From positions 1 to 42,844 of IMG/VR virus record IMGVR_UViG_3300031974_002566: 42,844 nucleotides of DNA; one strand, 5' to 3'. The DNA is from a virus. Below, one piece after another: positions 19,099-41,052 of this stretch (its first letter is position 1; each line of letters opens with the position of its first letter). The notes beneath the pieces were generated by a model. It saw nothing but the letters and a program-made list of their open reading frames with translations, had not been told where the DNA came from and did no database searches. Made by a program: the position numbers and the translations under genes.

Positions 19099-19125
19099 GC
19101 TGAACTCGCATGGGTGTGCAGCAAG

Positions 19126-19160
19126 ACCCTTTCCGCGCCAACCGGAAGGGGTTTTGTTTT
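19126..19160 (+). terminator. Intrinsic terminator of the late structural operon
   Basis: ACCCTTTCCG (19126-19135) pairs with CGGAAGGGGT (19143-19152), a 10-bp stem with one G-U pair and a 7-base loop. It is followed by TTTTGTTTT. It lies directly after the last small gene of the virion block. Confidence 0.85.
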
Positions 19161-19227
19161 GGGAAGACACTCTTGTAACTGACTACCAAGATCGCTCGGT
19201 AGGATTCTGGGACGGTTATTTAATCCC

Positions 19228-19581
19228 ATGATCAAAACCGCATCTGCTGCCATCGCTTGTATCGCCCTGGCTGCACCTGCTATGGCTGGTCCTTACGTCA
19301 ACGTCGAAAACAATGCTGGCTGGGCTGGCAGCAGCTTTTCTGGCTCTGCCACTGACCTCCACCTGGGTTATGAGAGCGGCAATGACGTTGCCAGCTTCTA
19401 CCTCCAAGGTGGTCCTACCTACGTCCAACCCAACGGCGTTGACGGCGAGACCATCCTTACCGCGAAAATCGGTGGCTCGGTGAAGGCGACTGACAAGCTC
19501 AGCGTCTACGGCGAGCTTTCCGGCGCTTTTGATGACGTCAACGGCTACGGCAGCAAAGTCGGTGCGAAGTATTCCTTTTGA
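19228..19581 (+). CDS. Secreted beta-barrel-like protein
   Basis: This 117-residue protein has a clear signal peptide (MIKTASAAIACIALAAPAMA, cleavage probably after AMA). It is followed by amphipathic strands (YVNVENNAGW, TDLHLGYESG, ASFYLQGGPTYVQ, KLSVYGELSGA) and ends VGAKYSF, with the terminal Phe typical of outer-membrane barrels. I recall similar proteins in cyanobacteria and cyanophages. It stands between two terminators, so it is its own transcription unit. It may insert into the host outer membrane, for example to alter surface or receptor properties; this is inference. Confidence 0.7.
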   Translation: MIKTASAAIACIALAAPAMAGPYVNVENNAGWAGSSFSGSATDLHLGYESGNDVASFYLQGGPTYVQPNGVDGETILTAKIGGSVKATDKLSVYGELSGAFDDVNGYGSKVGAKYSF

Positions 19582-19611
19582 CGGCATACTGACTGCATCA
19601 CACCAAACAAC

Positions 19612-19637
19612 AGACCCGCTTCGGCGGGTCTTTTTTT
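19612..19637 (+). terminator. Intrinsic terminator after the secreted barrel gene
   Basis: AGACCCGC (19612-19619) and GCGGGTCT (19624-19631) form a perfect 8-bp stem closed by the stable TTCG tetraloop, followed by TTTTTTT. It is 30 bp downstream of the barrel gene. Confidence 0.92.
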
Positions 19638-19663
19638 GCCCGTCATACCGCGAGTGCTGGTGG

Positions 19664-19876
19664 TTGCGCTGGTATCACCAACTAGTAATCAGCCATCGCT
19701 ACCTGTTTAGCCTCGTGCGGGTAGTCGTCGTCCCGTGCATCACTCGACCTGAGAACTGGGAGCACTGCCGACGTGTCGATCGTTGGCTGATTCCTGCTGT
19801 GCAGGATTTGCTCGATTTCTATACAGTCGAGGCGTACAGCAAAGAGCAGGAGCTACTCCGTGCAAAGGATCATTAA
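19664..19876 (+). CDS. Small protein of unknown function
   Basis: An open frame ends at TAA 19874-19876 and encodes LRWYHQLVISHRYLFS, RVVVVPCITRPENW and VQDLLDFYTVEAYSKEQELL segments. No ATG is available. TTG at 19664 or GTG at 19715 are the candidate starts. It overlaps the next gene by 17 bp in another frame. The stretch between the terminator at 19637 and the gene at 19860 would otherwise be empty, and the C-terminal part looks protein-like. Confidence is moderate to low. Confidence 0.4.
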   Translation: MRWYHQLVISHRYLFSLVRVVVVPCITRPENWEHCRRVDRWLIPAVQDLLDFYTVEAYSKEQELLRAKDH

Positions 19877-20105
19877 CGCGCTCGCCGTGACCGCGTTCCT
19901 GTTGTCGGGGTCGATGACCGCAGCCCTGGTCATCTCGTTTTTGCAGATGGAGTCTGTACAGCGCGCAGCCATCAAGCGCATTACGGCTCAAGTCACCAGC
20001 GCGATCGAAGCTGAGCTGAGCGGCAAAGTCGACGACAAGATCAACGGCGTGGTTAAGCAGTTGCCTACGCAGACTGGACCTGCCCTCCCCCTTGCCAAAC
20101 CATGA
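19860..20105 (+). CDS. Small membrane-anchored protein
   Basis: This 81-residue protein starts at GTG 19860 with an AGGAG site 8 bases upstream. Residues 5-27 form one hydrophobic segment (INALAVTAFLLSGSMTAALV). They are followed by a helical charged region (AAIKRITAQVTSAIEAELSG) and a Pro-rich end. Small proteins with this layout occur in cyanophage genomes near lysis-type genes. It may be an inner-membrane anchor. Its stop overlaps the next start (ATGA). Confidence 0.6.
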   Translation: MQRIINALAVTAFLLSGSMTAALVISFLQMESVQRAAIKRITAQVTSAIEAELSGKVDDKINGVVKQLPTQTGPALPLAKP

Positions 20106-20305
20106 ATAAGGAAGGTCTCTGGTACGACGCCAAGAGCGGGTTGTATGGATACGACGCCGACTACCTGCCTGATCTGATTTGTGAGTTGCTGGAAGGATGC
20201 CTGAAATCAGGTCAGTCACCATCCAACCTGTACAGGTTCCAGCGATCACACGCGTACCAGAGATTAGAGCTCTGCCGGTTGCGCCCCCTGTCACGCTCGA
20301 ACTAG
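20102..20305 (+). CDS. Small protein of unknown function, overlapping the next gene
   Basis: This 67-residue frame begins with an ATG coupled to the previous stop. The first 35 residues (EGLWYDAKSGLYGYDADYLP, ELLEGCLKSG) look like genuine protein. The remaining part overlaps the longer gene at 20197 by 109 bp in another frame, so the true C-terminus may be short-lived or variable. No family is recognised. Confidence 0.45.
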   Translation: MNKEGLWYDAKSGLYGYDADYLPDLICELLEGCLKSGQSPSNLYRFQRSHAYQRLELCRLRPLSRSN

Positions 20306-20877
20306 GTTTTCCGATCGTTGAGCTACCAGGCTGCGCCGTAGTTCACCCAGACGCCAACCTCAACCCGAGCTTGCTGCAGGACGATCCTGCACGGACTGGC
20401 GCCTTTTGCCCTGAGGGACAGATGCCTTCATTTGTCCCAATGGATTTCACCCCAAGTGAGATCAAGGTTTTCGAGCAGAGTGCGCCATCGCAAAACGACG
20501 AAGACGATGAACCAGAAACCTCTGACCGTCCGACAATCCCGCGAATACCTAGAGCGGATCCGCCGTCAGCTCAAAAAACAGAAACTACAGAGCCTGAAAA
20601 ACCCTTCATCGAGCAAGCCATCGACGGATTGCCCCCCGTCGGAGCCGTCGTCACGACAACGACGATCGCCCTGGTGGCGGCAACTTCAGCGTTGGTTGCG
20701 AAACCGCTGGCTGACCTGATCCTGAAGCTGATCAAACCTACGGTGAAGAAGACCGTGAAAAAGGTTTCACAGTTAAGGGGACAGCCCGTGAAGGTGGAGT
20801 CGGTTCGTGAGCGTGTGCTGGCGCAGCGGGATCGGAACCGCGCTTTGATGGCTCTACGGCGGGCGCTGAAACCTTGA
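20197..20877 (+). CDS. Pro-rich protein with one membrane segment
   Basis: This 226-residue protein has an N-terminal Pro/Val-rich half (VQVPAITRVPEI, ELPGCAVVHPDANLN, DDPARTGAFCPEGQMPSFVP), an acidic Pro-rich linker at about 95-135 and a hydrophobic segment at about 148-172 (VGAVVTTTTIALVAATSAL). The C-terminus is basic (VKKTVKKVSQLRG, RDRNRALMALRRA). The GC-V-H-D-N...NDDP-type segment is familiar from cyanophage hypothetical proteins. It is probably a membrane or virion-associated protein. The 3' end overlaps the convergent gene on the other strand by 140 bp. Confidence 0.6.
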   Translation: MPEIRSVTIQPVQVPAITRVPEIRALPVAPPVTLELGFPIVELPGCAVVHPDANLNPSLLQDDPARTGAFCPEGQMPSFVPMDFTPSEIKVFEQSAPSQNDEDDEPETSDRPTIPRIPRADPPSAQKTETTEPEKPFIEQAIDGLPPVGAVVTTTTIALVAATSALVAKPLADLILKLIKPTVKKTVKKVSQLRGQPVKVESVRERVLAQRDRNRALMALRRALKP

Positions 20878-21469
20878 TCTTGTGGACGTGGGGCAGCACC
20901 TGCCCTGGCTTCGGCTTGAGAATCACGTCCGAGCAGATCACATAGAACTTGCTTTGGGGATGGAAGGCGATGCCCTTTTGAGCTAGCTCCCCGCAATGAC
21001 GGAGCCTCGAAAGCTCAAAGTCCAAACGCTTGTTAGCGAGGATCTGCCGCTGCAGAGCGTTATGGGTGTCGGCGCTGGCTTTACAGCGTTCCTGGAGCCC
21101 GCCATCGAGCGGGAAACTTAGGGTTGCGCTAACGCCGAAGTTAAGCGCGTGGTTGTTTTTCTGACCGCTCGGGAGCTCTTGGTAGTACAGGACATTTCCT
21201 GGGTTGTCCGGTACGCCGTTTTCATCATCGTCGGTGGGATCGTAATACGGTGTCCTGACCGTGGAGCTGTACGGCAGGGCGTATGACTTGCTGGTGGTGA
21301 CGAACGGCGAAAGGTTGAACGTCGGACCCTGGCAGGAGATGGAGGGTCCGTAGGCGTTTGTCGGATACGGACCCGTCAGCATCTGGATCGCCTGGTTCGT
21401 GACCGATCCGCTGCTGTTCGCGACTGGGTTCGCCGTTGCGTTTGCTTGCCCGTAGCTAGGTAGCGGCAA
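20738..21469 (-). CDS. Secreted cyanophage-type protein (third of a trio), start unclear
   Basis: The frame contains a hydrophobic signal-like stretch (LWTLVLLLPLPSYGQA) followed by a body with SGSVTNQAIQMLTGPYPTNA, SCQGPTFNLSPF and CKASADTHNALQRQ segments, recalled from cyanophage secreted proteins. No ATG or GTG lies just before the signal stretch. The nearest standard start is TTG at 21469, which would cut off most of it; CTG at 21475 or 21472 or a shift from the upstream frame are alternatives. A distant ATG at 21649 would overlap the neighbouring gene by 172 bp. Probably exported and perhaps virion-associated. Confidence 0.6.
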   Translation of the reverse strand: MPLPSYGQANATANPVANSSGSVTNQAIQMLTGPYPTNAYGPSISCQGPTFNLSPFVTTSKSYALPYSSTVRTPYYDPTDDDENGVPDNPGNVLYYQELPSGQKNNHALNFGVSATLSFPLDGGLQERCKASADTHNALQRQILANKRLDFELSRLRHCGELAQKGIAFHPQSKFYVICSDVILKPKPGQVLPHVHKIKVSAPAVEPSKRGSDPAAPAHAHEPTPPSRAVPLTVKPFSRSSSP

Positions 21470-21477
21470 CAGCAGGA

Positions 21478-21903
21478 CTAAGGTCCAAAGACCGAGGTGG
21501 TGTCGGTGACTGACTCGACGACGGTTGTCCGCTGGATCTCGGTGACTGTTTGCAGCCCCGGTCCGCTGTAGCTTTCGACGAACTGGAATGACGCACCCGG
21601 CGTAGTCATCGACCAGGTTGGCTTGTCTTCTAGAGCTAGTCCAGTCCACGAGGATGTGACGCCGTCAATCGTTTGGGTTTGGACAGGACCAGCACCAGGA
21701 AGGATCGAACTTCCCGAGTGCTGGACACCTGAGCCGCTTGCTGAATAGGTGTAGCCGGTGGCGTAGTCAATTGACTTGATGACCTCGGTCACCTGGGTGG
21801 TCGACTCCGTGCGTGAAGTCATCGTGCCCGTGCGGAAGTTCGGCACAACCGGCATCGCTACGGCGGGTGCCTGCAGCACCAGCAGCAGAAGCAGCCAGCG
21901 CAT
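21478..21903 (-). CDS. Secreted protein of unknown function (second of a trio)
   Basis: This 141-residue protein has a signal peptide (MRWLLLLLVLQAPAVA) and a Thr/Ser/Gly-rich mature part with strand-like patterns (FRTGTMTSRTESTTQVTEV, ITTPG-like and VESVTDTTSVFGP). It lies between two other signal-peptide genes on the same strand, sharing a stop/start overlap with the upstream one. Members of this trio appear familiar from cyanophages. Possible roles are virion decoration or periplasmic action; there is no motif to decide. Confidence 0.65.
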   Translation of the reverse strand: MRWLLLLLVLQAPAVAMPVVPNFRTGTMTSRTESTTQVTEVIKSIDYATGYTYSASGSGVQHSGSSILPGAGPVQTQTIDGVTSSWTGLALEDKPTWSMTTPGASFQFVESYSGPGLQTVTEIQRTTVVESVTDTTSVFGP

Positions 21904-22406
21904 CAGTCGATCCGGATCTCGGTCACCATCTGCCCGGTGGCAGAAGTACCAGCGCCGCCAGCGGTGACGGTCATGCCGTGCGCTGAATCAATCGTGCCTG
22001 CGAGGGTGCCTGCAACGCCACCGGAAGTAGTTGTCGTGTTGCCAAATAGCGGCAAGCTGCCGACAACGCCGCTAGTGACGGTGGTGCTAGTTGTGCTGGT
22101 GCTGTCGCCCTCTATGTAGCTGGTAGAGAACGAGAAGGCATCTCCTGAACTGGCTTGAGTTGCAGTGATGGTGGTGATAGAAGGGACACCGTTACTAACA
22201 GCCCCAAAACCGCCGAGAGCGCCAGCGTTGCTTCCGTCAGTAGTGGAAGCTCCTGATCCGGAGACGGAGTAGACGGTGGGTACTCGGGTGGCTGCACTTG
22301 CGGCGGCATCGACGGTCAGCTGAACGCTGGACTGAATTTTGTGGACGATGTCTGCGTGTGCAGGGCTAGCTGCCAGCAGAACTATTAGGGGCAGAAGCCT
22401 GCGCAT
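21903..22406 (-). CDS. Secreted Gly/Thr/Ser-rich protein (first of a trio)
   Basis: This 167-residue protein has a signal peptide (MRRLLPLIVLLAASPAHA) and a low-complexity beta-rich body: VHKIQSSVQLTVDAAASAAT, YSVSGSGASTTDGSNA and a C-terminal AGGAGTSATGQMVTEI. I recall a very similar secreted protein family in cyanomyoviruses, where this trio is also adjacent. Its start lies 40 bp inside the upstream membrane-protein gene. Function is unknown. Confidence 0.7.
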   Translation of the reverse strand: MRRLLPLIVLLAASPAHADIVHKIQSSVQLTVDAAASAATRVPTVYSVSGSGASTTDGSNAGALGGFGAVSNGVPSITTITATQASSGDAFSFSTSYIEGDSTSTTSTTVTSGVVGSLPLFGNTTTTSGGVAGTLAGTIDSAHGMTVTAGGAGTSATGQMVTEIRID

Positions 22407-22671
22407 CTTTTCCCTTGCCAGGTGTCTCTTTGATCGTAGGTGGCTCTTTCTTGGTCTGGTTGCCTGTTTTCCGCTCTATCCCGAATCCCGCCATCGCTCC
22501 TGTAAGCAGCGATGCGATAAAAGTCGAGTCCATCTTCATGTTCGGGAAGAGGTTCAGGTACGACACCGTCAGGAGTGTTGCCGACCACCCGAGAACCATC
22601 AGACGCACTACATCAGCCAGGTGGACTCCTTCTTTCTCTGGAGTTTGAGTCTGTTCTTCAGGGGTCGCCAT
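22366..22671 (-). CDS. Two-helix membrane protein, holin candidate
   Basis: This 101-residue protein (start ATG 22671, first residues MATPEEQTQ) has two hydrophobic segments, at about 23-42 (VVRLMVLGWSATLLTVSYL) and 50-66 (STFIASLLTGAMAGFG), and a charged Lys/Glu/Pro-rich C-terminus. Size and topology fit a small holin-like protein, and a cysteine peptidase likely to be the lytic enzyme is encoded nearby. The holin role is inference. It is the first gene of a four-gene - strand unit and is divergent from the + strand gene 15 bp away. Confidence 0.6.
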   Translation of the reverse strand: MATPEEQTQTPEKEGVHLADVVRLMVLGWSATLLTVSYLNLFPNMKMDSTFIASLLTGAMAGFGIERKTGNQTKKEPPTIKETPGKGKDAQASAPNSSAGS

Positions 22672-22686
22672 GATGGATAGAGGCTT

Positions 22687-22947
22687 TTGAGGAACGTGGT
22701 CGAGCTTGCTGCGGCAGCCGTAGGCGCAACGATTTCGGCTGCGTTCTTGGGTATGAACACACAACTCCGGAGAGGAGCTGATCGCCGGGATTCATTGGTA
22801 CGACTGACATCCAGCGTAGAAGCAATCAACAGCCGCCTCGAAGACCTCCACAACGATCTCCGGTCTGAGCGCGTAGAGATTTTTTCTCGGTTAAGCGCAG
22901 CTGAACAGAAGATCGCTCGCCTTGAAGGCTCGGTGAAGCAGACCTAG
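22687..22947 (+). CDS. Membrane-anchored coiled-coil protein
   Basis: This 86-residue protein has an N-terminal hydrophobic segment (VVELAAAAVGATISAAFLGM, residues 4-23) and a heptad-rich remainder (SSVEAINSRLEDLHNDL, FSRLSAAEQKIARLEGSV). The TTG at 22687 gives the longest frame; GTG at 22696 is an alternative. Neither has an ideally spaced ribosome binding site. Single-membrane-pass coiled coils like this occur in lysis regions, but there is no spanin hallmark such as a lipobox. Function unknown. Confidence 0.6.
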   Translation: MRNVVELAAAAVGATISAAFLGMNTQLRRGADRRDSLVRLTSSVEAINSRLEDLHNDLRSERVEIFSRLSAAEQKIARLEGSVKQT

Positions 22948-22971
22948 ACTCCGCGCAACTGCCGTACGGCG

Positions 22972-23130
22972 ATGGTTGTTTTAATCCGTCCGATCCTGTT
23001 TGCTTTCATGCAATCGGAAGCGGTCAAAAAGCTGATCCTCGATCTTTGCCGCGCTTGGGTTTCCAAGACCGACAACAAGATCGACGACCAGCTGTGCGAC
23101 ATGCTCGAACGCGCGCTGTTCGACAAGTAG
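22972..23130 (+). CDS. Small protein of unknown function
   Basis: This 52-residue protein (MVVLIRPILFAFMQSEAVKK start) has a short hydrophobic N-terminus and a helical, charged C-terminus (KTDNKIDDQLCDMLERAL). It lies 24 bp after the coiled-coil gene and 4 bp before the peptidase gene, so it is part of one + strand unit. I recall closely similar short proteins in cyanophages. No function known. Confidence 0.65.
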   Translation: MVVLIRPILFAFMQSEAVKKLILDLCRAWVSKTDNKIDDQLCDMLERALFDK

Positions 23131-23134
23131 TCGG

Positions 23135-23866
23135 ATGTATTTGGACTGGCTTGCCGCCACCATGATCCGCCTCGAACAGTTCTTTCAGTACTTCGAGAAC
23201 CTCCCGTATCAACGGGCTGCGATTCAGAAGCTGCAAGAAGACATGCCTCCGGAGCTGCTGGAGCATGACGCGGAGTGGTTCGAGATCTGGAAGAGCGGCG
23301 GCAAGCTGGTGCCCTTCAAGGTGCCGTACTACAGCCAATACGAGCTGCATAACGGATACCGGAAGTGCTTCACGTCTGCAATGGCGATGATCGCGAGCCA
23401 TTACGGCGTGATTACCAAGCAGGAGCAGTACGACAAGGTGCGCATGAAATACGGCGACACCATCGACGTAGGTGCTCAGCTGTCTGCGATCGAAGAGCTC
23501 GGGTTGCGAGCTGAGTTCGTACGAGACGGCTCAGAAGACCTGATCGAAGCGGAGATCGACAGCGGACGACCTGTAGCTGTTGGCTGGCTCCACAAGGGCG
23601 ACATCAGTACCGGGCGCCCCGCCGAGGGCTTCGGTCACTGGGCAGTGATCATCGGCTATACCGAGCGGTTCTTTATCGTTCACGACCCAAGAGGCGAGCA
23701 CGACATAGAACGCGGCAAGCTCCTCAAACGCGGCGAAGGCGCTTCAGTGTTTTACGACCGTGAAGATTTTCTCCACCGTTGGATGGTCGAAGGACCGCGT
23801 TCTGGCTGGGCGATCCTTGTAGACGCCTTCCCGCCGTTACTTATCCAGCCAACGCCGCAGCCCTAA
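23135..23866 (+). CDS. C39-like cysteine peptidase, probable lytic enzyme
   Basis: This 243-residue protein has the papain-like C39-type layout: Gln68 in PYYSQYE (oxyanion), Cys78 in RKCFTSAMAMIASHYG, His168 in GFGHWAVIIGY and Asp184 in VHDPRGE. Residues 1-55 form a helical N-terminal extension. Cyanophages commonly carry this peptidase type. It could cut peptide cross-bridges of the wall during lysis, acting as an endolysin. The genome has no other obvious lysozyme, amidase or transglycosylase gene, apart from the NlpC/P60 domain in the tail tip protein. No signal peptide is seen, so it would need a holin. Confidence 0.75.
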   Translation: MYLDWLAATMIRLEQFFQYFENLPYQRAAIQKLQEDMPPELLEHDAEWFEIWKSGGKLVPFKVPYYSQYELHNGYRKCFTSAMAMIASHYGVITKQEQYDKVRMKYGDTIDVGAQLSAIEELGLRAEFVRDGSEDLIEAEIDSGRPVAVGWLHKGDISTGRPAEGFGHWAVIIGYTERFFIVHDPRGEHDIERGKLLKRGEGASVFYDREDFLHRWMVEGPRSGWAILVDAFPPLLIQPTPQP

Positions 23867-24046
23867 CTGCTGCCCGTAGACCTCGCAAGCCTCGTTGTAA
23901 TGACGGTGTGCTTGCCACTCTTGTTTATGGTCTTTGACCATGCCTGCATAGATAACTCGGTATCTCTTCCCAGCTTCCGTTTCTATTTCTTCAATTTTTG
24001 GCGGATTCATGCAGCTATCTTGAAAATCATGCTGCCATTCCGACAT
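23837..24046 (-). CDS. Small protein of unknown function
   Basis: This 69-residue protein starts at ATG 24046 (MSEWQHDFQDSCMNPPKIEE). It has a short beta-like segment (GKRYRVIYAGMVKDH) followed by helices (EWQAHRHYNEACEVYGQQLG). The last 30 bp overlap the convergent peptidase gene. It has charged, protein-like composition but no recognised family. It is isolated on the - strand between two + genes. Confidence 0.55.
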   Translation of the reverse strand: MSEWQHDFQDSCMNPPKIEEIETEAGKRYRVIYAGMVKDHKQEWQAHRHYNEACEVYGQQLGLRRWLDK

Positions 24047-24062
24047 GACTTGGGGGGACTGG

Positions 24063-24473
24063 ATGGTAGTCAACCTAACCATGGAGGAAGAGCTGCGCAT
24101 CGAGCAGCAAGCAAGGTCAATACTTGCCTCTAGCGACGAAGAGCAGGTCCGCGACATGTGCGCGGCGTTGTCCAAACAAAACGCCTTCCAGCAAAAGCTG
24201 ATCAAGCAAGCTGTCCGTCATATCACCGAGCTAGAGCTGAAAGCAGAGCTATCGGCGCTCGAAGGCGTTGACCCTGTTGCCTGCGCTCACGTCAGACAAC
24301 AGTTCGGGTTTGATAGTTCGGATCAGCCTCGTCCAGATGGCACTCAGGACCGAAACCTTCTGCTTTCACTCGCTCTGAAAGTCCTAGGTCCGGTCCTGTG
24401 GGCTCTGGGTTATGTCCTTGGTCTCCTAGAGATAGCGAGGCGAACCATGAATCGAGCGCGTCACGGCTTCTAG
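24063..24473 (+). CDS. Helical protein with C-terminal membrane-like segment
   Basis: The start chosen is ATG 24063, behind GGGGGGAC, giving 136 residues; ATG 24045 is an alternative. The first 85 residues are helical and acidic (NLTMEEELRIEQQARSILAS, VRDMCAALSKQNAFQQKLI), a pattern I recall in cyanophage genes beside the peptidase. The last 40 residues contain a hydrophobic helix (LLLSLALKVLGPVLWALGYV). This C-terminal part lies on 182 bp that are also coding on the - strand, so its extent is uncertain. Confidence 0.55.
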   Translation: MVVNLTMEEELRIEQQARSILASSDEEQVRDMCAALSKQNAFQQKLIKQAVRHITELELKAELSALEGVDPVACAHVRQQFGFDSSDQPRPDGTQDRNLLLSLALKVLGPVLWALGYVLGLLEIARRTMNRARHGF

Positions 24474-24627
24474 TCTTCGGCGGCAGCTTTAAGAACTGCC
24501 GCACCTCTTTGTGCTCACGCACGAAGACGCTGGCGCCACGGGCGTAGCAAATGTAGAAGCGACCGTTGAAATCCTTGCCGGTCTCGACGGTCATGTCGCC
24601 TTGCAGGTGCAGGGTTTCGCGTTTCAT
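24292..24627 (-). CDS. Conserved-looking protein of unknown function, last gene of the - strand unit
   Basis: This 111-residue protein has a beta-rich N-terminus (RETLHLQGDMTVETGK, GRFYICYARGASVFVREH) and a C-terminal segment GFGPECHLDEADPNYQTRT that looks constrained. The start overlaps the upstream zinc-ribbon gene by 4 bases. It lies at the end of the sigma-factor unit and overlaps the convergent + gene by 182 bp. No family is recognised. Confidence 0.6.
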   Translation of the reverse strand: MKRETLHLQGDMTVETGKDFNGRFYICYARGASVFVREHKEVRQFLKLPPKTRSRDALDSWFASLSLGDQGHNPEPTGPDLGLSERVKAEGFGPECHLDEADPNYQTRTVV

Positions 24628-24884
24628 TGGATTGCCTTTTTCATGAAGTCATAGAAGTTGCCTAGGTCTTGCCAGAAGATCGTCGCCACGTTCTTTTGCT
24701 GCCATTGCACAGAGCGGGTGTGAGCTACCGCCTCTCGTGGTTGCACGGTGTTAAACCGATGCTCACAGATAGGGCAAGCTCGGCGGCGGACGAAATCGCC
24801 ATCCTTTGAACGGTGGGTCGATTTGACGTCGGTTACCAGGCTGCCGCAGTTAGGGCACGGCGGACCCATCCGATTAGCTGCCAT
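24624..24884 (-). CDS. NrdR-like zinc ribbon protein
   Basis: This 86-residue protein has two CxxC pairs, CPNC at 10-13 and CPIC at 37-40, in the context GSLVTDVKSTHRSKDG and FVRRRACPICEHRFNTVQ. That closely follows the N-terminal zinc ribbon of NrdR. The ATP-cone domain that senses nucleotides in NrdR is missing. It could be a DNA- or RNA polymerase-binding regulator, and it lies 3 bp downstream of the sigma factor gene, so a shared role in transcription control is plausible. Function is inferred. Confidence 0.7.
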   Translation of the reverse strand: MAANRMGPPCPNCGSLVTDVKSTHRSKDGDFVRRRACPICEHRFNTVQPREAVAHTRSVQWQQKNVATIFWQDLGNFYDFMKKAIQ

Positions 24885-24887
24885 GGT

Positions 24888-25814
24888 CTAGCTCCAACCC
24901 CAGGTCAAGCTGGAGCTGCGTCTCTGTTTCTGCCGCTTTCCCGGCGGTCGGTCCTCCAAAATGTCGCGCAGCCGTTCTTCGGCTTTGTGTACAAGCTGTC
25001 TTGTCACTTCTTTGCCGATGCCGATCCGATTGGCGATCTTCGGATTCGACAACGGCTCTTCGCCATCTAACCCGTAACGCAACGACAGAAGTCGTCGTTC
25101 GCTCTCGCTCATCTGCGCGAAGGCGCGCTTGACGGCAAGGATCGCCGTTTCGTGAGCCAGCTCTTCGGCGGGGTCGACTTGATTGCTCTGGATCAGATCG
25201 ACGATGGTGCTTCCGTCGTCGTCCCTGGTCCGAGCTTTGGTGTCGAGACTGGCGGCATCTTCTGCGGCTTGCAGATAGTTCCGCATCGTCTCCGGTTGAA
25301 CGCCGATCAGCTCGGCGCATTGCTCAAGGGTGGGCATTTTGCCGTGCTCTTTTTGATAGTCGATCATGAAATACTTGACCTTGCGCAAGCCGTCTGGCGC
25401 TCCGCTTGGGAGACGGATCATTCGGTCTTGGGTTTGCGTTGCACGCATAATCCCTTGCCGGATCCACCAGTAGGCGTACGTGGAGAACTTGTAGCCGCGC
25501 GCAGGATCGAACATCTCTGCGGCGCGAATCAGACCGATGTTGCCTTCCTGCACTAGGTCTTGCATGGAAAGGCGATTCGTCATCCTGCTGAACTTGCTGG
25601 CGACGCTGATGACCAGGCGGAGGTTGCCCTGAATCATCCGCTTCTTTGCCCTCTTGCCCACTCGAATCAGGCGTTCCTCTTCTTTGGTCAGCTCTGGCTT
25701 ATCCAAGAGAGGCATCATTGCCTGAATGGCGTTGCCGAGCGCGATCTCTTCAGCGGCTGTCAGGAGCGGGATTTTCCCGATCTGATTTAGGTAGTCGCGT
25801 AAGTAGTCAGACAT
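24888..25814 (-). CDS. Sigma-70 family factor, cyanobacterial group-2-like
   Basis: This 308-residue protein has the full architecture of a primary/group-2 sigma factor. Region 1.2 reads DYLRDYLNQIGKIPLLTAAE. Region 2 carries RLVISVASKF, the core-binding DLVQEGNIGLIRA and the -10 recognition stretch YKFSTYAYWWIRQGI. Region 3 starts near residue 155. Region 4 contains LLSLRYGLDGEEPLSNPKIA and VTRQLVHKAEERLRDIL. Regions 1.2 and 2 are very like cyanobacterial sigma factors. Region 4.2 is diverged at the -35 recognition helix, so it may read different promoters. It is not of the T4 gp55 type used by many cyanophages. It lies directly behind a terminator-like hairpin. Confidence 0.92.
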   Translation of the reverse strand: MSDYLRDYLNQIGKIPLLTAAEEIALGNAIQAMMPLLDKPELTKEEERLIRVGKRAKKRMIQGNLRLVISVASKFSRMTNRLSMQDLVQEGNIGLIRAAEMFDPARGYKFSTYAYWWIRQGIMRATQTQDRMIRLPSGAPDGLRKVKYFMIDYQKEHGKMPTLEQCAELIGVQPETMRNYLQAAEDAASLDTKARTRDDDGSTIVDLIQSNQVDPAEELAHETAILAVKRAFAQMSESERRLLSLRYGLDGEEPLSNPKIANRIGIGKEVTRQLVHKAEERLRDILEDRPPGKRQKQRRSSSLTWGWS

Positions 25815-25822
25815 CTAGCCAT

Positions 25823-25843
25823 AAAAAAGGGGGCAAAGCCCCC
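25823..25843 (-). terminator. Terminator-like hairpin in front of the sigma gene
   Basis: On the - strand GGGGGC (complement of 25838-25843) pairs with GCCCCC (complement of 25829-25834) around a 3-base TTT loop and is followed by TTTTTT. It ends 9 bases before the sigma ATG (25814). It would end SSB transcripts and stop read-through into the sigma gene unless antiterminated. Confidence 0.8.
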
Positions 25844-25849
25844 CGGACC

Positions 25850-26182
25850 TTAAAACGGCATCTCGGTGGATTCAACCTTGGGCTTCGGAGGCAGTCGGAA
25901 CTCGTTGACATCGACGACCAGGTTGGCGCGAGTCTCTCCGTTCTTGGCTTCGTAGGTTTCCAGGTGCGCCTGACCGGCGATGGTGACCTGCATGCCCTTT
26001 TGCAGAAGCTCGGCTGCGTTCTTTGAACGCTCACCCCAGACGGCGCAGCGGAGAGGCGTCACATACTCCTCGTTTTTGCGGCGCTTGTTGACGAGCACCG
26101 TGAAGTTAGTGACGTCCAGCTTGCCTACTTGGCGGATTTCGGGGTCAGCTGCGAGGTTGCCGACGGCTGTGATTGAAAGCAT
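25850..26182 (-). CDS. ssb: Single-stranded DNA binding protein
   Basis: This 110-residue protein starts at ATG 26182. It has the SSB OB-fold pattern: VGNLAADPEIRQVGK, VTNFTVLVNKRRK, TPLRCAVWGERSKNAAELLQKG and QVTIAGQAHLETYEAKNG. The C-terminus is short and ends ESTEMPF, with the acidic/aromatic tip that recruits partner proteins. It coats single strands during replication and works with the annealing protein encoded upstream. It overlaps the gene before it by 58 bp. Confidence 0.92.
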   Translation of the reverse strand: MLSITAVGNLAADPEIRQVGKLDVTNFTVLVNKRRKNEEYVTPLRCAVWGERSKNAAELLQKGMQVTIAGQAHLETYEAKNGETRANLVVDVNEFRLPPKPKVESTEMPF

Positions 26183-26376
26183 GGTCCGAAGAATTTGGAA
26201 ACGATGTTGGACAGGGCTTGTCTGGCTGTGCAGTTCCGCGCTTGCGCGTAGTGCTCGACGGAGGCGCACAGGTCAGGTGGGAGGAAATCTTCGAGATGAC
26301 TAGCCAAAGGCTTGATCTGGTTTCGCTGCTGAGCGTAAAGAGCCGCCATCTGGGCGTGCATCATCTCGTCGTTCAT
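26125..26376 (-). CDS. Small helical protein of unknown function
   Basis: This 83-residue protein (MNDEMMHAQMAALYAQQRNQ start) is helical and has a LPPDLCASVEHYAQARNCTA segment resembling a small DNA-binding or antitoxin-like helical protein, but no family is clear. It lies between the annealing protein and SSB genes, starting 4 bp after the former and overlapping the SSB gene by 58 bp. Co-transcribed with the recombination genes. Confidence 0.55.
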   Translation of the reverse strand: MNDEMMHAQMAALYAQQRNQIKPLASHLEDFLPPDLCASVEHYAQARNCTARQALSNIVSKFFGPCFQSQPSATSQLTPKSAK

Positions 26377-26380
26377 GGCA

Positions 26381-27076
26381 TCAAGGGGTCAGACGCTCCT
26401 GGATGAACTGCAGGTGTTTGGGGAGCGTGATGTGGGAGGTGATTAGCTCACCTTCCGGCACGCTGAATTCCGCCATGAACTCTTTGATGATCTTGTTCCT
26501 GACGGGCGTGGTCTCCTTCGCCAGGAGTCCGCGAATGGAGGTCAGGTCAGACGGGTTCAGGGGAACCTCACCTGGTTCCAGGTCAGCTGCTTGCTTAGTC
26601 GGTTTAGCCGAGGTTTTCGCCTTTTGCTTGGGCTCGGGACGAGGTTCAGCAGCTGGCGCGGGTTGAGCTTTTGCCTCTTCGATTTCCTCGCGTGCCCACA
26701 GCTCGTAACCGAGGGAAAACGTGAAGGCGGCGTTGGCGCACAGGGCGCGACGGTGGCTGTCGGTCAGGGTGCGGCAGCTCACCTTGTCGAACTTGACAGG
26801 CTGGTTGCGGTTGTCCTGGACCGGGTAGACAAAGTCCGGGGTCGCCTGGTCTTCAGGTCCGGTGAAATAGCTGACGAGGTAGGCGGAACCGTCGGGTGCT
26901 TGCCAGACGTGCCCACCATCAGGCGCAGGTTTTAGGTGGAACTCCCAGCCGGAAGCCATGGTGTGCAGGTGGTTGGCAATCCGTGCCCAGCTGACGTAAT
27001 CAGCTGCGTAATTGCCGGTGCCCTTGCGGAAGACGTCGTCTTTGTTGATGACGCCCGCAAGATTCGGGATGGTCAT
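26381..27076 (-). CDS. Single-strand annealing protein (DUF1071-like)
   Basis: This 231-residue protein has an N-terminal domain (residues 1-135) that fits the DUF1071 group of Rad52-like annealing proteins: YVSWARIANHLHTMASGWEF, VYPVQDNRNQPV and SCRTLTDSHRRALCANAAFTF followed by LGYELWA. A Pro/Ala/Lys-rich linker lies at 140-175. The C-terminal 55 residues form helices (RGLLAKETTPVRNKIIKEF). It would anneal complementary single strands, working with SSB and the phage nuclease. Family assignment by pattern. Confidence 0.75.
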   Translation of the reverse strand: MTIPNLAGVINKDDVFRKGTGNYAADYVSWARIANHLHTMASGWEFHLKPAPDGGHVWQAPDGSAYLVSYFTGPEDQATPDFVYPVQDNRNQPVKFDKVSCRTLTDSHRRALCANAAFTFSLGYELWAREEIEEAKAQPAPAAEPRPEPKQKAKTSAKPTKQAADLEPGEVPLNPSDLTSIRGLLAKETTPVRNKIIKEFMAEFSVPEGELITSHITLPKHLQFIQERLTP

Positions 27077-27510
27077 TGTGCGGTGAACGTGGTGACTGTG
27101 ATGATTGCCCCTGGCAGTTCTGTCTCTTCGCAGTAACGCTTGGAAGCGTTTAGCGAAACGACCTGACGATCATCGTCGAAAAGAACTCCGGTGAGCGCGT
27201 CGTTGGTGCTTCTCACGAGTTTCTCAATGTCGCCGTGAGTAGCTGAAGTGCAGGCAGAGGGGGCGGACGAGCGGAGACCACTTTTGTTGAAGTGCGATTT
27301 AGGTCTTTGAAACCTGAAGACCACAGACAAGTGAACAGGCGATGCCATATCCCACTCGTCAGGCTTCTGGTCGATGGCGGCGTATTTAACGTCTTGCCGC
27401 CACGGCTTCACTTTCTTGCTCGACTCGACCATGACCCCGCGCCCGATGTGACGTTTGGAGCCCTGAGGCGCGGGGATGCCGTGAACAACGAAAGTGATGG
27501 AGTCGTTCAA
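27073..27510 (-). CDS. rusA: RusA-family Holliday junction resolvase
   Basis: This 145-residue protein starts with FVVHGIPAPQGSKRH, the family's nucleotide-contact strand. It carries the catalytic acidic residues Asp94 (GDIEKLVRSTND), Asp104 and the FDDDRQV cluster at 111-117. RusA dimers cut four-way junctions made during recombination and replication. It overlaps both neighbours by 4 bp, so it belongs to the recombination unit with the annealing protein and SSB. Confidence 0.9.
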   Translation of the reverse strand: MNDSITFVVHGIPAPQGSKRHIGRGVMVESSKKVKPWRQDVKYAAIDQKPDEWDMASPVHLSVVFRFQRPKSHFNKSGLRSSAPSACTSATHGDIEKLVRSTNDALTGVLFDDDRQVVSLNASKRYCEETELPGAIITVTTFTAQ

Positions 27511-27839
27511 AATGCGCTATCTAAGCGCCAGTAGATTGTCACGCTGCGCTCGGCTAGTCCAGCGTCGATGTCTTGCTCCTTAATGGCGTCGATTGCCTTC
27601 CGAGCTTGCTTGCTGAGCTTGTAGCTGCTGCGCTCGCAGCGGGTGTACTTGGCGTTGCTGAACTGGTAGGTGCCCTCGTCGGCTTGATGCTCGTCGAGTT
27701 CGCCTAGTGCCATGGCTCCTTGGAGCTGTTCTTTGAGGAACGCCTCACGAGCTTCGAGTTCGGCGCGCTCTTCGCGGATCTGCAACAGGGCGTCGATCAG
27801 GTCTTGGGCGGTGGTGATGTCGGTAGTCACTTGTTGCAC
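27507..27839 (-). CDS. Coiled-coil protein of unknown function
   Basis: This 110-residue protein (GTG start at 27839, with a second GTG nine bases later) has a long helix with charge repeats (QIREERAELEAREAFLKEQL) and a C-terminal helix/strand part (KQARKAIDAIKEQDID, SVTIYWRLDSAF). Its layout resembles small phage recombination accessory proteins. It overlaps RusA by 4 bp and the upstream gene by 13 bp, so the unit is tightly coupled. Function not recognised. Confidence 0.65.
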   Translation of the reverse strand: MQQVTTDITTAQDLIDALLQIREERAELEAREAFLKEQLQGAMALGELDEHQADEGTYQFSNAKYTRCERSSYKLSKQARKAIDAIKEQDIDAGLAERSVTIYWRLDSAF

Positions 27840-27973
27840 TCCGGGGCGACTTTGACGTAGGGCTGGGTGCCGCTGTGGGTGCTGCCGTGGTGGGCGGTGG
27901 CTTCAAGACCGATAAAGGCGAAGGCTGCGGCGGCGATCAGGAAGCAGGCGACGTTGGCGAGTTTGTCTTGCAT
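27827..27973 (-). CDS. Small single-pass membrane or exported protein
   Basis: This 48-residue protein (MQDKLANVACFLIAAAAFAF) has a hydrophobic stretch at about 7-22 and a His/Ser/Gly-rich tail. It overlaps the downstream gene by 13 bp and lies 17 bp behind the upstream gene. It could be a signal peptide or an anchor. No family. Confidence 0.5.
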   Translation of the reverse strand: MQDKLANVACFLIAAAAFAFIGLEATAHHGSTHSGTQPYVKVAPECNK

Positions 27974-27990
27974 GGTGAGAAGGCGGTGGT

Positions 27991-28224
27991 TCAGGAGGCG
28001 ATGGTGACGCAGATGCGCTGGACCATGTCCATGGCGAGGTCGCTGCCCTCATCGGAGTGAGAGTCGATGCCTTCGCGCTCGATGATCGTGGCTGCCATGT
28101 CGAGCAGCTTGTCGAGCATCTCGTCGCCGAGATAGTCGGTCAGGTCGTCTTGCAGATCCTGGAGCATCCGCTTGCGTTGCTCAGCGGGAAGCTCGGGATA
28201 GTCGACAGGTTGAAGAGGAAGCAT
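27991..28224 (-). CDS. Small acidic helical protein
   Basis: This 77-residue protein (ATG 28224, MLPLQPVDYPELPAEQRKR) is strongly helical and acidic (MLQDLQDDLTDYLGDEMLDK, LDMAATIIEREGIDS). It is the first gene after the promoter candidate at 28269-28296, so it leads the recombination/SSB operon. Early phage genes with this profile often bind host proteins; here function is unknown. Confidence 0.6.
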   Translation of the reverse strand: MLPLQPVDYPELPAEQRKRMLQDLQDDLTDYLGDEMLDKLLDMAATIIEREGIDSHSDEGSDLAMDMVQRICVTIAS

Positions 28225-28268
28225 TGTGCGATGAACGGGTCGTGTGACGGGCTTCGCCCGTGAGCATA

Positions 28269-28296
28269 TTATTACCCATAACCGGGAGGAACGCAA
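28269..28296 (-). promoter_or_regulatory. Candidate promoter of the recombination operon
   Basis: On the - strand, TTGCGT (complement of 28291-28296) lies 16 bases before TAATAA (complement of 28269-28274). The start codon of the first gene is about 45 bases downstream. The 25 bases at 28275-28299 match 20 of 25 at 31211-31235, where a second promoter candidate sits the same distance from its gene. Confidence 0.55.
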
Positions 28297-28317
28297 CCTG
28301 TTCCAACCCTCTTTTGA

Positions 28318-28926
28318 TTAAATCAGGAAGTTCTCCCAGTATTTCCCTGGGTTCTCGCAGTACAGCGTCAGATCATCCAGCTGGTACTTCAGCTGTCGCA
28401 TCTTCACCTCGAACTCCTCCAGCAGCGCCGCAAAGTAAGAGTCAGTCCGGCTCAACCTGGTGAGCGACTTCAGCAGCCCTTTGCTTTCCTCGTACGCAAC
28501 CTCCGCCAGATCGCGCTCGATCTTGATGTCGCTGTCGAGCATGAACTCGACGCACGGCATCGACAAGGTTTTGTCGATCGACCGAATCAGCCGCTTCATC
28601 TGTTCCTCGATGCTTTCCGCCTCGCTCACGGCTTCCACCACCGCGACAGACTGCATCTGCTGGTGAGTCAAAACCGACTTTTCCCCAGCCTGGTGAGGAC
28701 GGAAGACTGCCGCCTTGCCGCTGAAGCCAGCGTTGAGCCTGATCAGCGCCCAGTCACGGTTGTCGACCTTGACCGTGTCGCCAATTCGCATCGACGCTGC
28801 GCTCTGGCTGCTGTCGCTCTGGTGGCAAAGGATCAGGTCTGTCGTCCAGCTGCAATCAGCGTCTTTCGTCCTGCCGCAGATCGGACAGGGTGTGCGCTTA
28901 CTTGACCGTATGAAGCTGCTCTTCAT
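28318..28926 (-). CDS. Zinc-finger protein with primase-like N-terminus
   Basis: This 202-residue protein has an N-terminal metal-binding pattern CPICGRTKDADCSW...LILCHQ at residues 14-35, like the CHC2-type or related zinc fingers at the N-terminus of phage and plasmid primases. A TOPRIM or polymerase domain does not follow. Instead residues 95-200 are helical (EEQMKRLIRSIDKTL, LLEEFEVKMRQLKYQL). It could be a primase accessory or recognition subunit, or an unrelated zinc-finger regulator. It lies upstream of the promoter candidate. Confidence 0.6.
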   Translation of the reverse strand: MKSSFIRSSKRTPCPICGRTKDADCSWTTDLILCHQSDSSQSAASMRIGDTVKVDNRDWALIRLNAGFSGKAAVFRPHQAGEKSVLTHQQMQSVAVVEAVSEAESIEEQMKRLIRSIDKTLSMPCVEFMLDSDIKIERDLAEVAYEESKGLLKSLTRLSRTDSYFAALLEEFEVKMRQLKYQLDDLTLYCENPGKYWENFLI

Positions 28927-29258
28927 TTAGCCCTCAAAAGCTGCGTCCTTGTCACCTGCGCGATTTCCAGCTCCTTTTTTGTTTTTTCAAGCAGGTGCAG
29001 AACACATCGCCTCAAGTCTTTGTGACCATCTCTAAACCCCTCTCGGTAGGGGTCTTTCGGTATTTCAGTCGAGAGTTCAGGCAAGGAATCCAGCACGTCT
29101 CTTAGGACGTAAATTCTTGCCTCCAAAGCCATGATCTCCTTGAGCCCTGGGTCGACTGGTTTTAGGTGCGACGGGATGCTCAGCAAATACTCGGTCGCCC
29201 TGGGGTTGAACCAGAAGCCCGTGAGTTTTTTGAGCTTCCACAAGTGTTTTTTTGACAT
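28923..29258 (-). CDS. Helical protein of unknown function
   Basis: This 111-residue protein begins MSKKHLWKLKKLTGFWFNP and is helical later (LKEIMALEARIYVLRDVLD, LRRCVLHLLEKTKKELEIA). It overlaps the zinc-finger gene by 4 bp, so the two are coupled. The N-terminus is strongly basic and aromatic. I do not recognise the family. Confidence 0.55.
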   Translation of the reverse strand: MSKKHLWKLKKLTGFWFNPRATEYLLSIPSHLKPVDPGLKEIMALEARIYVLRDVLDSLPELSTEIPKDPYREGFRDGHKDLRRCVLHLLEKTKKELEIAQVTRTQLLRAK

Positions 29259-29576
29259 GATCGAAAAGTTTGGGGGACTTACATGAATTGCCGCTTACTC
29301 AGCGCCGTAGAACGGTTGACTAGAACCGCTGGCACCACGCTGGTCCGCGACGGGAACCTCTCTTTCAGTGCTTGGGAAGTTGCAACCCACCAGTTAGCCC
29401 GACCAGTGGCAACCCCTACACAGGCAGCAGCACGGAGCCCCACGCAATGACGGGCTCCTATCAATGCCCCAGGTCATTAAACTGACGGCTCGAAATTCTA
29501 TTGAGGAATCTCGAAGCGTCCGCCGACGGCAGGCGACGGTGAGGGGAGGACTGCTCCGGCAAGCTCCCCACCTGCC
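29259..29576. other. 318-bp stretch without a convincing gene
   Basis: Two overlapping short frames compete here. One is on the + strand at 29283-29450 (55 residues, MNCRLLSAVERLTRTAGTTL start, GGGGGA five bases before the ATG). The other is on the - strand at 29279-29464 (61 residues, TTG start, internal GTG behind TAGGAG). Neither resembles a known family. The - strand frame agrees with the orientation of its neighbours. From 29465 to 29576 nothing convincing is seen. Confidence 0.4.
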
Positions 29577-29774
29577 TCACCTTTGGCGCGGGTATTTGCC
29601 AGGTGGCAGCTCAAGACAGTGCTCAAGCAGCGCCACCTGCCACTCGACTTCCATATTCAGCAGGTACTCGCGAGCCTCGTCTGAGAGAGGCATCCGCAAG
29701 ACAGGCTGCAACCGGGGCTCACCTGCGACCATGCCGCGCAGGTATTGGAGCATCAGCCGAGCGGCGCCCTTCAT
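29577..29774 (-). CDS. Small protein of unknown function
   Basis: This 65-residue protein (MKGAARLMLQYLRGMVAGEP) is helical in the middle (SDEAREYLLNMEVEWQVALL) and coupled to the upstream gene by a 4-bp overlap. It has normal codon use for the region. No domain is recognised. Confidence 0.55.
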   Translation of the reverse strand: MKGAARLMLQYLRGMVAGEPRLQPVLRMPLSDEAREYLLNMEVEWQVALLEHCLELPPGKYPRQR

Positions 29775-30493
29775 GAGAGGTGCTTGAGGTCGATAACGGT
29801 CTTATGGTGCCCGTGGGCGCAGGAAACGGAAAGGGTGCCTTCAGGATCGTTATTGGATTGAAGGTGTGCGCTTCGCAGTGGCGCAAGAACGTCCAACAAG
29901 TATTTGACGGCATCAAGAGTTTTCTGCACAAACCGCTCGTCCGCTTCAGACGAATGGTCCTCGCACCACTCGAAATAAGCGTCACAAAGCGCGCTTTGAG
30001 CAAGCAGCAAACCTGACTCATGCTTGTCCATCCATTCGCCTTTCTTGACGAGATAGCGCAGCCGTGGGAGGTAGGACTTGAGAAGCTCCGTGGCTTGCTT
30101 TTTCTCAATGTCAGCCTTCAGCTGCTCTTCGAGCTTGTCGACTTCGGTGATCACTTCGGCTTGCTCCTCAGATTCTTCGGCGATCCGCGCCCGGACCATT
30201 TCTTGCGTAGCGGTGGGCTGATTCTTGAGAGGCAGTGCAAACGCGATCAGATCCTCTTTGTTCTTGGCAACCTCGCGCACTGACGCGCGGATCACGGCGT
30301 TACGGCTGACATGGCTCCACCATTCGGCGCCGTCAACGTCAGGCTCGAAGACCAGAACGTCACCCTTCCATTCGCTTTCGTCGAACTTCAGGACGGCGAC
30401 CATGCCGCCGTTTTTCTTGCCTTTGTTGTCGCGGGTAGGAGCGTGGAAGAACCGGGTGATCGGTGCTTCGATGGACTTAGGGAATGCGGTCAC
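29771..30493 (-). CDS. Hypothetical protein with helical C-terminal half
   Basis: This 240-residue protein has a beta-rich N-terminal part (ITRFFHAPTRDNKG, GMVAVLKFDESEWKGDVLVF) and a long charged helical middle (residues 100-150, EQAEVITEVDKLEEQLKADI). It then has EWMDKHESGLLLAQSALCDA and a C-terminal end carrying Cys-His residues (CAHGHH). It is in the - strand early operon. The function is unknown. Confidence 0.65.
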   Translation of the reverse strand: MTAFPKSIEAPITRFFHAPTRDNKGKKNGGMVAVLKFDESEWKGDVLVFEPDVDGAEWWSHVSRNAVIRASVREVAKNKEDLIAFALPLKNQPTATQEMVRARIAEESEEQAEVITEVDKLEEQLKADIEKKQATELLKSYLPRLRYLVKKGEWMDKHESGLLLAQSALCDAYFEWCEDHSSEADERFVQKTLDAVKYLLDVLAPLRSAHLQSNNDPEGTLSVSCAHGHHKTVIDLKHLS

Positions 30494-30735
30494 GAGAGTT
30501 CCTGTTGGTGCTTTGCGATCAGTTCCCGGACATGTACCGGGTATGTGGAATAAGCCGTAAGGGCTTTGGCGAGAAGGCTGAGTTCCAAGTGACCGAGCGG
30601 TCTGATGAAGTCAGCCTCTAGCTCGCCAATCAGCACCAGGAAGATTAAGTAGGTGCTGGGATGTTCCTCGTTGTCTGCGAAACAAAAGAGGCGGTCGACG
30701 TCGTATTCGGCGTCGCGGATCGCTTCTGATTTCAT
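30490..30735 (-). CDS. Small helical protein of unknown function
   Basis: This 81-residue protein starts at ATG 30735 (MKSEAIRDAEYDVDRLFCFA), overlapping the preceding stop in an ATGA. It is helical with a hydrophobic core (YLIFLVLIGELEADF). It overlaps the next gene by 4 bp. Family unknown. Confidence 0.55.
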   Translation of the reverse strand: MKSEAIRDAEYDVDRLFCFADNEEHPSTYLIFLVLIGELEADFIRPLGHLELSLLAKALTAYSTYPVHVRELIAKHQQELS

Positions 30736-30944
30736 ACGTCGATAGGGTCGATGGAAATGCCGCACTCTTTCCAGAGTCGCTTTGAGTAAAGGTGGCGTAG
30801 CTGGTGCGCTTCGTGAGCCTCGTCGAATCGTCCGAGGTTTTTGAAGTACCGCTCTCGCATGGTTTCCCAGGTGTAGCCCTTGAAGAGAAGTTCTTCGGGT
30901 ACGGAACCTGTCGGGTTGTTCCGTGGGCGACGAGGTCTAGCCAT
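30732..30944 (-). CDS. Small basic protein of unknown function
   Basis: This 70-residue protein starts at ATG 30944 with MARPRRPRNNPTGSVPEELL, a basic N-terminus, then a helical part rich in His, Arg and Glu (FDEAHEAHQLRHLYSKRL). The basic N-terminus suggests nucleic acid or protein binding. It overlaps the next gene by 4 bp and begins 2 bp after the previous one. No family. Confidence 0.55.
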   Translation of the reverse strand: MARPRRPRNNPTGSVPEELLFKGYTWETMRERYFKNLGRFDEAHEAHQLRHLYSKRLWKECGISIDPIDV

Positions 30945-30946
30945 GA

Positions 30947-31162
30947 TCAGCGGCGCTTGCGGAAGAAGGTGGTGAACTTGTTGTCTAGCTCGATCACGTT
31001 GGAAGCCCAACTGCCTGCTTCAGGAATGTCGTCGGGATCAGGCAATTCGTTACGAGCCTGACGAGCCAGTTCGTAGATGAGGTCAAGCTCGACGGCGCTG
31101 AGGGTGACCTCGTATTGAACGTCGTGTCGAGTGCGGGGGGTGCCTTTGGTTACGTCTTTCAT
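30947..31162 (-). CDS. Small protein, first gene behind the second promoter candidate
   Basis: This 71-residue protein starts at ATG 31162 (MKDVTKGTPRTRHDVQYEVT). It has a helix-turn-like part (ELDLIYELARQARNELPDP) and a basic end (FFRKRR). It leads a run of coupled - strand genes from 30947 down to 29577. Function unknown. Confidence 0.55.
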   Translation of the reverse strand: MKDVTKGTPRTRHDVQYEVTLSAVELDLIYELARQARNELPDPDDIPEAGSWASNVIELDNKFTTFFRKRR

Positions 31163-31203
31163 GGGTGTAGCGGCGGAGTGAAGAGGGCTTGCCGACCACA
31201 GAA

Positions 31204-31232
31204 GTATGGACCATAAGCGGTAGAAAAGCAAC
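31204..31232 (-). promoter_or_regulatory. Candidate promoter of the second early unit
   Basis: On the - strand TTGCTT (complement of 31227-31232) is 17 bases before CATACT (complement of 31204-31209), about 42 bases upstream of the start codon at 31162. The surrounding 25 bases (31211-31235) are 80% identical to those of the other candidate at 28275-28299. Confidence 0.5.
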
Positions 31233-31278
31233 CTTATTCAGGGTTGTCTCAGACCTTCTTTAATTGCCTTTGACTGCC

Positions 31279-41000: not shown

Positions 41001-41034
41001 CTCCTTGCCGGTAGTGATACCGTGTGCCTGAAAT

Positions 41035-41049
41035 TAACCTTACGGGTTA
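41035..41049 (+). other. Short hairpin with TTACG loop before the scaffold gene
   Basis: TAACC (41035-41039) pairs with GGTTA (41045-41049) around the loop TTACG, ending 3 bases before the scaffold ATG. A similar hairpin with the same loop occurs at 41763-41777 before the capsid gene. Confidence 0.35.
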
Positions 41050-41052
41050 TTC

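Follow-up and report, generated by a model that had tools for sequence, protein, structure and literature searches.

Sigma factors of the kind studied here are already known from several cyanobacterial phages, namely S-CBS1 and S-CBS3 (rpsD4), KBS-S-2A, S-LBS1 and P-SS2. The accessible part of the P-SS2 paper describes a group 2 sigma factor encoded by that phage (PMC2784084), KBS2A encodes RpoD (PMC3751600), and the S-LBS1 paper, in the portion available, indicates that a sigma factor is also known there (PMC6157547). A review, likewise accessible in part, relates altered growth and metabolism in S. elongatus made to express S-CBS3 RpsD4 (PMC10452541). The accessible text of the publications naming these siphovirus sigma genes gives no promoters for them. 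A further point of reference is T4 gp55, whose variable linker bears a clamp peptide; the available part of a review calls this mechanism unique to T4-related phages or unlike other bacterial systems (PMC2988020).

Here we analyze a viral record of 42,844 bp (hereafter the window, meaning the whole stretch of DNA at its full length) that carries a sigma gene of this type. The reading we consider probable is that the gene encodes a working phage sigma that would be gated by a terminator, coupled to a zinc-ribbon gene and able to turn host polymerase toward promoters of the phage, probably late ones. This reading draws on the domains and structural model, an S-CBS3 homologue in the same place, a phage-only clade, changed promoter contacts, the conserved terminator, codon freeze, fixed junction spacing, ribbon matches and swaps at the seam. 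The terminator, frozen 3' end and fixed ribbon junction in the window clade, together with the QLxL tails of its relatives, look new.

The sigma gene and its relatives

The head and tail genes of the record (terminase, portal, scaffold, major head, tape measure) run rightward, and profile matches identify a leftward recombination module of exonuclease, RusA, Sak-type annealing protein and SSB. The sigma gene lies near the end of this module on the minus strand (24888..25814) and encodes 308 residues from an ATG start. Upstream of it, all on the minus strand, are ssb (25850..26269; PF00436, E 4.6e-18 on 25850-26173), whose limits are those of the ORF such that the true start may be further in, the annealing protein (26381-27076; PF06378 over cut-off) and the RusA resolvase (27073-27510; PF05866 over cut-off). 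Beyond the adjoining zinc-ribbon gene is a conserved small protein, phrog_37139 (24292..24627, minus strand; E 1.9e-35), also present in S-CBS3 (38.7% match). DNA comparison of window positions 15000-39999 with the phage collection returned no relatives.

Three other features of the record were observed. A palindrome, AATAGGTCGGTTCCGAACCGCTATT, occupies positions 32091-32115, in the gap from which the exonuclease and replication genes diverge, and is a possible operator. Adjoining genes on the plus strand (34084-36247) resemble a ParB-like nuclease, a methyltransferase and a queuine tRNA-ribosyltransferase (phrog_6059), a cluster compatible with a possible 7-deazaguanine DNA modification. Directly 5' of the scaffold gene start (41053) is a plus-strand hairpin (41030-41052) which, as judged by eye, is retained in relatives with base changes on both sides (AACC..GGTT, AACCC..GGGTT, AAGCC..GGCTT); this pattern suggests a putative RNA control site for the head gene.

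The preliminary description of this locus had identified a phage-encoded sigma-70 factor, and the protein bears this out. Pfam recognizes four sigma70 domains above the curated thresholds, namely regions 1.2 (residues 3-34, E 6e-12), 2 (60-131, E 5.5e-20), 3 (144-217, E 1.4e-6) and 4 (231-283, E 1.3e-7). Region 2, for core binding and -10 recognition, maps to 25422..25637 on the minus strand (PF04542, 73 bits) with GYKFSTYAYWWIRQ kept, and region 4 to 24966..25124 on the same strand (PF04545), where the alignment and a helix in the model place a diverged -35 recognition helix at residues 268-287. An AlphaFold2 model from 26 sequences (mean pLDDT 77.3) reproduces the helices expected of sigma2, sigma3 and sigma4 and leaves residues 289-308 as a disordered tail. 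The best PDB match has an E value of 2e-44, and Foldseek with the model retrieves SigA-type chains, for which the domain arrangement is unreliable (TM ~0.39). The window sigma is an intact sigma70 factor of a kind already known.

Inspection of its relatives separates type from origin. The SigA/group 2 type named earlier agrees with the closest cellular proteins, which are picocyanobacterial sigma factors at 43-45% identity (45% being the best across 399 genomes). The top NCBIfam model is TIGR02997, for cyanobacterial RpoD/SigA, at 258 bits, which is below its cut-off of 384.5. Among 50,697 phage records, 271 match the window sigma, all at less than 60% identity; the best identities for the cyanosiphovirus rpsD4/RpoD-like factors are 43% (S-CBS3), 42% (S-CBS1), 38% (KBS-S-2A) and 37% (S-LBS1), with homology spanning 84-91% of the protein. 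Sixteen IMG/VR loci are closer (59-80%), and all belong to one clade.

Phylogeny was examined in a tree of 27 phage and 31 cellular rows, hand-picked and supplemented with every usable sigma ORF from five host genomes, in which five cellular rows were taken as SigA from region 4.2. The window falls in a five-row clade (support 100/100), itself part of a clade of 20 rows that are all from phages (99/97), and none of the phage rows is nested within a cellular sigma group. A quicker 88-row tree, which omits L025, L155, L157, L168, L112, L027, L029, L039 and rows more than 75% alike, agrees on the placement of the window; its exceptions are a viral-classed contig (L046) inside a cellular group and a Microcystis phage row (L190) that groups with cellular rows. 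These placements do not support "host-type" as a statement of origin. By the criterion set in the preliminary description, the position outside cyanobacterial sigma factors refutes recent host capture while membership in the sigma70 superfamily stands. The suggested mimicry of a stress sigma finds no support. The tree and the changes in promoter-contact residues argue against a stress sigma taken up recently from a host, and this reading was rejected. We read the window sigma as probably an old phage lineage, a phage-specific branch of the sigma70 family, and the window virus is an S-CBS3-like cyanosiphovirus.

Sequences bordering the sigma gene

An intrinsic terminator lies between ssb and sigma (25828..25844, minus strand), where the gap reads GGGGGCTTTGCCCCC followed by TTTTTT. 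Site scan and alignment recover it in all 13 clade sequences as a six-pair stem with a T-rich stretch that ends 13-15 nt upstream of the sigma start. At the same position it is found in none of the S-CBS1 (0/1), KBS (0/9), S-LBS1 (0/11) or other phage sigmas (0/18), and two of five S-CBS3-group sequences have a terminator farther upstream of sigma. A lax scan of 18500-38000 returned 24 sites against 19.2 expected; since such sites are common, a lone terminator before sigma would be weak evidence, and it is conservation that carries the case. The sigma gene may be transcribed from a leaderless or internal promoter. A terminator just 5' of the start codon would delay or limit sigma synthesis, such that sigma would be made mostly from polymerase read-through.

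The opposite end of the gene is conserved as nucleotides. The last ~25 nt are frozen in sequence within the window clade and form an element, CAGCTCCAGCTTGANCTGGGGYTGG (24894..24918, minus strand), with 9-bp pairing potential, as defined by codon and sequence comparisons. Among 18 sequences, four of which had been found via the element itself (L296, L300, L301, L302), invariant degenerate columns using a single codon number 0 of 62 before residue 290 and 4 of 6 after it. When the comparison was repeated with the 14 sequences found by protein, the single-codon columns among 83 near-invariant ones were R6, P290, S300, S301, S302 and L303, that is to say, R6 alone lies outside the tail. The exact element pattern occurs in 35 viral stretches and is the 3' end of a sigma gene in every one. 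Three of these are L004, L005 and L006; of the 32 newly found, 25 have a sigma motif upstream in frame, and the other seven (L273, L275, L277, L279, L283, L288, L298) begin inside the gene with only the sigma end left. An attachment site shared with the host was rejected as an identity for the element, as its 24-base pattern, with one mismatch allowed, is absent from all 399 genomes scanned in the picocyanobacterial order.

Immediately downstream, in the same frame as sigma, is the zinc-ribbon gene (24624..24884, minus strand). Its 86-residue product is NrdR-N-like (PF22811, 33.9 bits, cut-off 27.2), and the cut-off of the NrdR-like model was exceeded in the window and in all five relatives tested; comparison with named phages gave a single weak match (E 2e-3). 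One codon separates the sigma stop from the ribbon start in 27 of 27 distinct junctions, with ATG as start in 26 and GTG in one. All ribbon genes have two CxxC motifs save that of L008, whose sequence ends after the first. The sigma stop codons are TAA in 16 junctions, TGA in seven and TAG in four, and a sigma-ribbon fusion by stop-codon read-through, suggested by the shared frame, is unlikely because all three stop codons occur.

Pairing within the 3' element involves ~9 bp (-12.1 to -15.3 kcal/mol) and extends over a G-rich stretch that could be a candidate ribosome site for the ribbon. If the pairing does cover a ribosome site, the sigma and ribbon genes would be coupled, such that the frozen element would link translation of sigma with that of the zinc-ribbon gene one codon downstream. 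Counting against this coupling, the element hairpin shows no covariation (no pair with two-sided changes), its loop is conserved too, and six 91-nt element contexts fold no differently from shuffles. The window has no Rfam match over cut-off for a known RNA family.

Comparison of sigma and ribbon alleles across 21 sequences reveals abrupt exchanges at this boundary. Sigma and ribbon identities are 99% and 34% for L028-L295, where DNA identity falls from ~98% to 25% across the junction, 100% and 34% for L295-L296, and 99% and 39% for L063-L302. On these alignments, ribbon alleles appear to be exchanged as a natural cassette at the sigma 3' end; the swaps support a recombination seam and count against a tight co-evolved sigma-ribbon interface. 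In the reading we favor, the element would serve coupling and double as the seam for ribbon exchange. A stricter alternative holds that it is a seam only, kept alike by exchange via the phage annealing protein and with no role in expression. The divergent ribbons beside near-identical sigmas, the fall in DNA identity at the seam and the nearby Sak-type annealing gene all fit this alternative, yet a pure seam needs neither a fixed stop-codon-start spacing at every junction nor a G-rich stretch at the expected ribosome site, and we regard it as rather unlikely, though the strongest of the competing explanations.

Promoter contacts and candidate targets

Residues in regions 2.4, 3.0 and 4.2 of sigma70 factors contact promoters, and the window sigma differs from host factors in each. 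The diverged -35 recognition helix pointed out beforehand is evident in the alignment, where host SRERVRQ corresponds to GKEVTRQ in the window, and divergence extends beyond that description into regions 2.4 and 3.0. In region 2.4, the host Q-x-x-T-R becomes Q-x-x-M-R in the window clade, the T-to-M position being one we take to be E. coli T440. In region 3.0, host LPIHI.E contrasts with LPSGAPD in the window, and the window clade is without the LPIH motif. Region 2 is otherwise conserved, with the clade keeping GYKFSTYAYWWI(R/K)Q. The recognition helix of the window retains E, R and Q while its first R is K, and in relatives the helix drifts (HRETVRK, HKEAARK, HRESMRR, AQDTTAR).

Moving host polymerase to phage promoters, as the preliminary description had it, is the natural reading of such a protein. 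The sigma would bind host core polymerase and direct it to phage promoters unlike those of host SigA; the most likely targets would be promoters of the rightward structural genes, and a role at late promoters is likely. Counting against this reading, no target promoter was found, and the motif expected upstream of late genes was absent where sought: the head-gene leaders compared share no common -10/-35 pattern, and sigma70-like sites number 2 against 5.1 in shuffles, so that they are fewer rather than enriched.

One alternative is that this is an ordinary rpsD4-type sigma acting on canonical host-like sigma70 promoters and adding sigma during takeover, with the terminator and 3' sequence merely inherited. 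The same role is proposed for the group 2 factor of P-SS2 in the accessible part of that paper (PMC2784084), and the E, R and Q retained in the recognition helix are in keeping with it. Against this, the contacts in regions 2.4, 3.0 and 4.2 are unlike those of hosts and vary from one clade member to another, there is no enrichment of consensus sites, and the 3' end of the gene is frozen by codon. We consider the alternative unlikely, and favor a sigma that would redirect polymerase to promoters of the phage's own type.

C-terminal tails and comparison with known systems

The disordered C-terminal tail of the window sigma (PPGK..Q..SSSLTWGWS, residues 289-308; 24891..24950, minus strand; pLDDT <50) is conserved in its clade, where the last eight residues are 87% identical as against 45% in region 4.2. 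Window-clade sigmas retain SSSLxWGW, and sister clades have QLxL instead, a motif related to the bacterial clamp-binding consensus, given in the accessible part of one report as QL(S/D)LF (PMC9690074). We did not class the window sigma as having a clamp-binding tail, as QLxL is missing and conservation is by codon and not by residue only. That its tail is a divergent QLxL form, a host sliding-clamp peptide acting as in gp55, is very unlikely: a conserved disordered peptide does follow a variable linker where sister clades have QLxL, but none of the 16 sequences of the window's sigma cluster has the motif, and the codon-level conservation means that the peptide may be a by-product.

Among distinct phage sigmas, 38 of 152 carry QLxL within their final 15 residues, compared with 0 of 80 cellular sigmas, a mean of 1.5 (maximum 7) in shuffled phage tails and 6 of 1597 other C-termini from the same viral loci; the counts exclude L076 and L183, which have no stop codon, and are not independent, since at 50% identity the motif is in the majority in 5 of 36 clusters. 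Example tails are EQLSLFAA, TQLALFGPLE, GQLALPLV, EQLRLF, MQQLTLVQ and MLQLPLIP, and the loci with such tails in S-LBS1, KBS-S-2A and their kin are L020, L149, L161, L163, L167, L176 and L019. QLxL in two tree rows (L072, L054) is probably due to chance. In the S-LBS1 clade (37 sequences, assigned by us), Q310, L311 and L313 never change, although six different codons encode L311 and the linker is variable, so the tail peptide is selected at the protein level. Extra residues follow QLxL in 13 of the 37. In part of this clade (L119, L121, L127, L130, L134, L136-L139, L142, L143 and kin) the sigmas have two QLxL motifs, neither terminal, and extend ~40 residues past the second QLVL motif. The KBS clade has QLxL in 4 of 8. 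The motif does not accompany loss of the region 4.2 motif as a rule, as relatives of KBS-S-2A combine QLxL with RERIRQ-type helices.

Eight sister phage records, of which some are fragments, yielded no beta-clamp domain. On the host side, a QMVLF string in DnaE was dropped as a clamp motif, its context being judged a conserved polymerase block, and in one Y-family polymerase locus of 428 residues QLDLP occurs at position 314, which is weak support. Judged by titles and the beginnings of abstracts, no paper retrieved from the open-access literature describes clamp-type sigma tails in cyanosiphoviruses. These tails are the strongest new lead of the analysis, one that concerns the relatives of the window and not its own sigma.

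A joint reading, which we hold to be improbable, would have a QLxL tether between sigma and host clamp in S-LBS1 and KBS-S-2A and a sigma-ribbon promoter code in the window, both replacing the -35 contact. Its clamp half would couple late transcription to replication as in T4, with a full-size sigma70 and the host clamp; in its ribbon half, sigma would be made in step with a swappable NrdR-type ribbon giving upstream DNA recognition. If QLxL tails bind the clamp, replication-coupled sigma transcription would have arisen separately from T4 with the host's clamp. Should sigma and ribbon together read promoters as two components, the second of them swapped as a cassette, the pair would provide a simple route to rewired promoter codes.

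Set beside described systems, the window is closest to S-CBS3, which has the same order of RusA, annealing protein, ssb and sigma ("rpsD4") but is without the zinc ribbon and without a terminator at the pre-sigma position of the window clade. The S-LBS1 and KBS-S-2A sigmas differ from the window sigma in their QLxL tails. Cyanobacterial group 1/2 sigmas (SigA family, TIGR02997) share its domains and include its closest cellular match, whereas the window lies outside every cellular group sampled, scores below the TIGR02997 cut-off and has changed promoter contacts. NrdR repressors combine a zinc ribbon with an ATP-cone; the ribbons of the window and five relatives match the N-terminal zinc-ribbon model, yet are 79-88 residues long with no ATP-cone family among their Pfam hits. 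T4 gp55, which works with gp33 and the gp45 clamp, resembles the sister phage sigmas, on the accessible account, in having a terminal clamp-type peptide on a variable linker. In contrast to gp55, which is sigma2-like only and has no sigma4, the window and sister sigmas have the full sigma70 build, region 4 included, and where T4 supplies gp45, the clamp of the sister phages would be that of the host.
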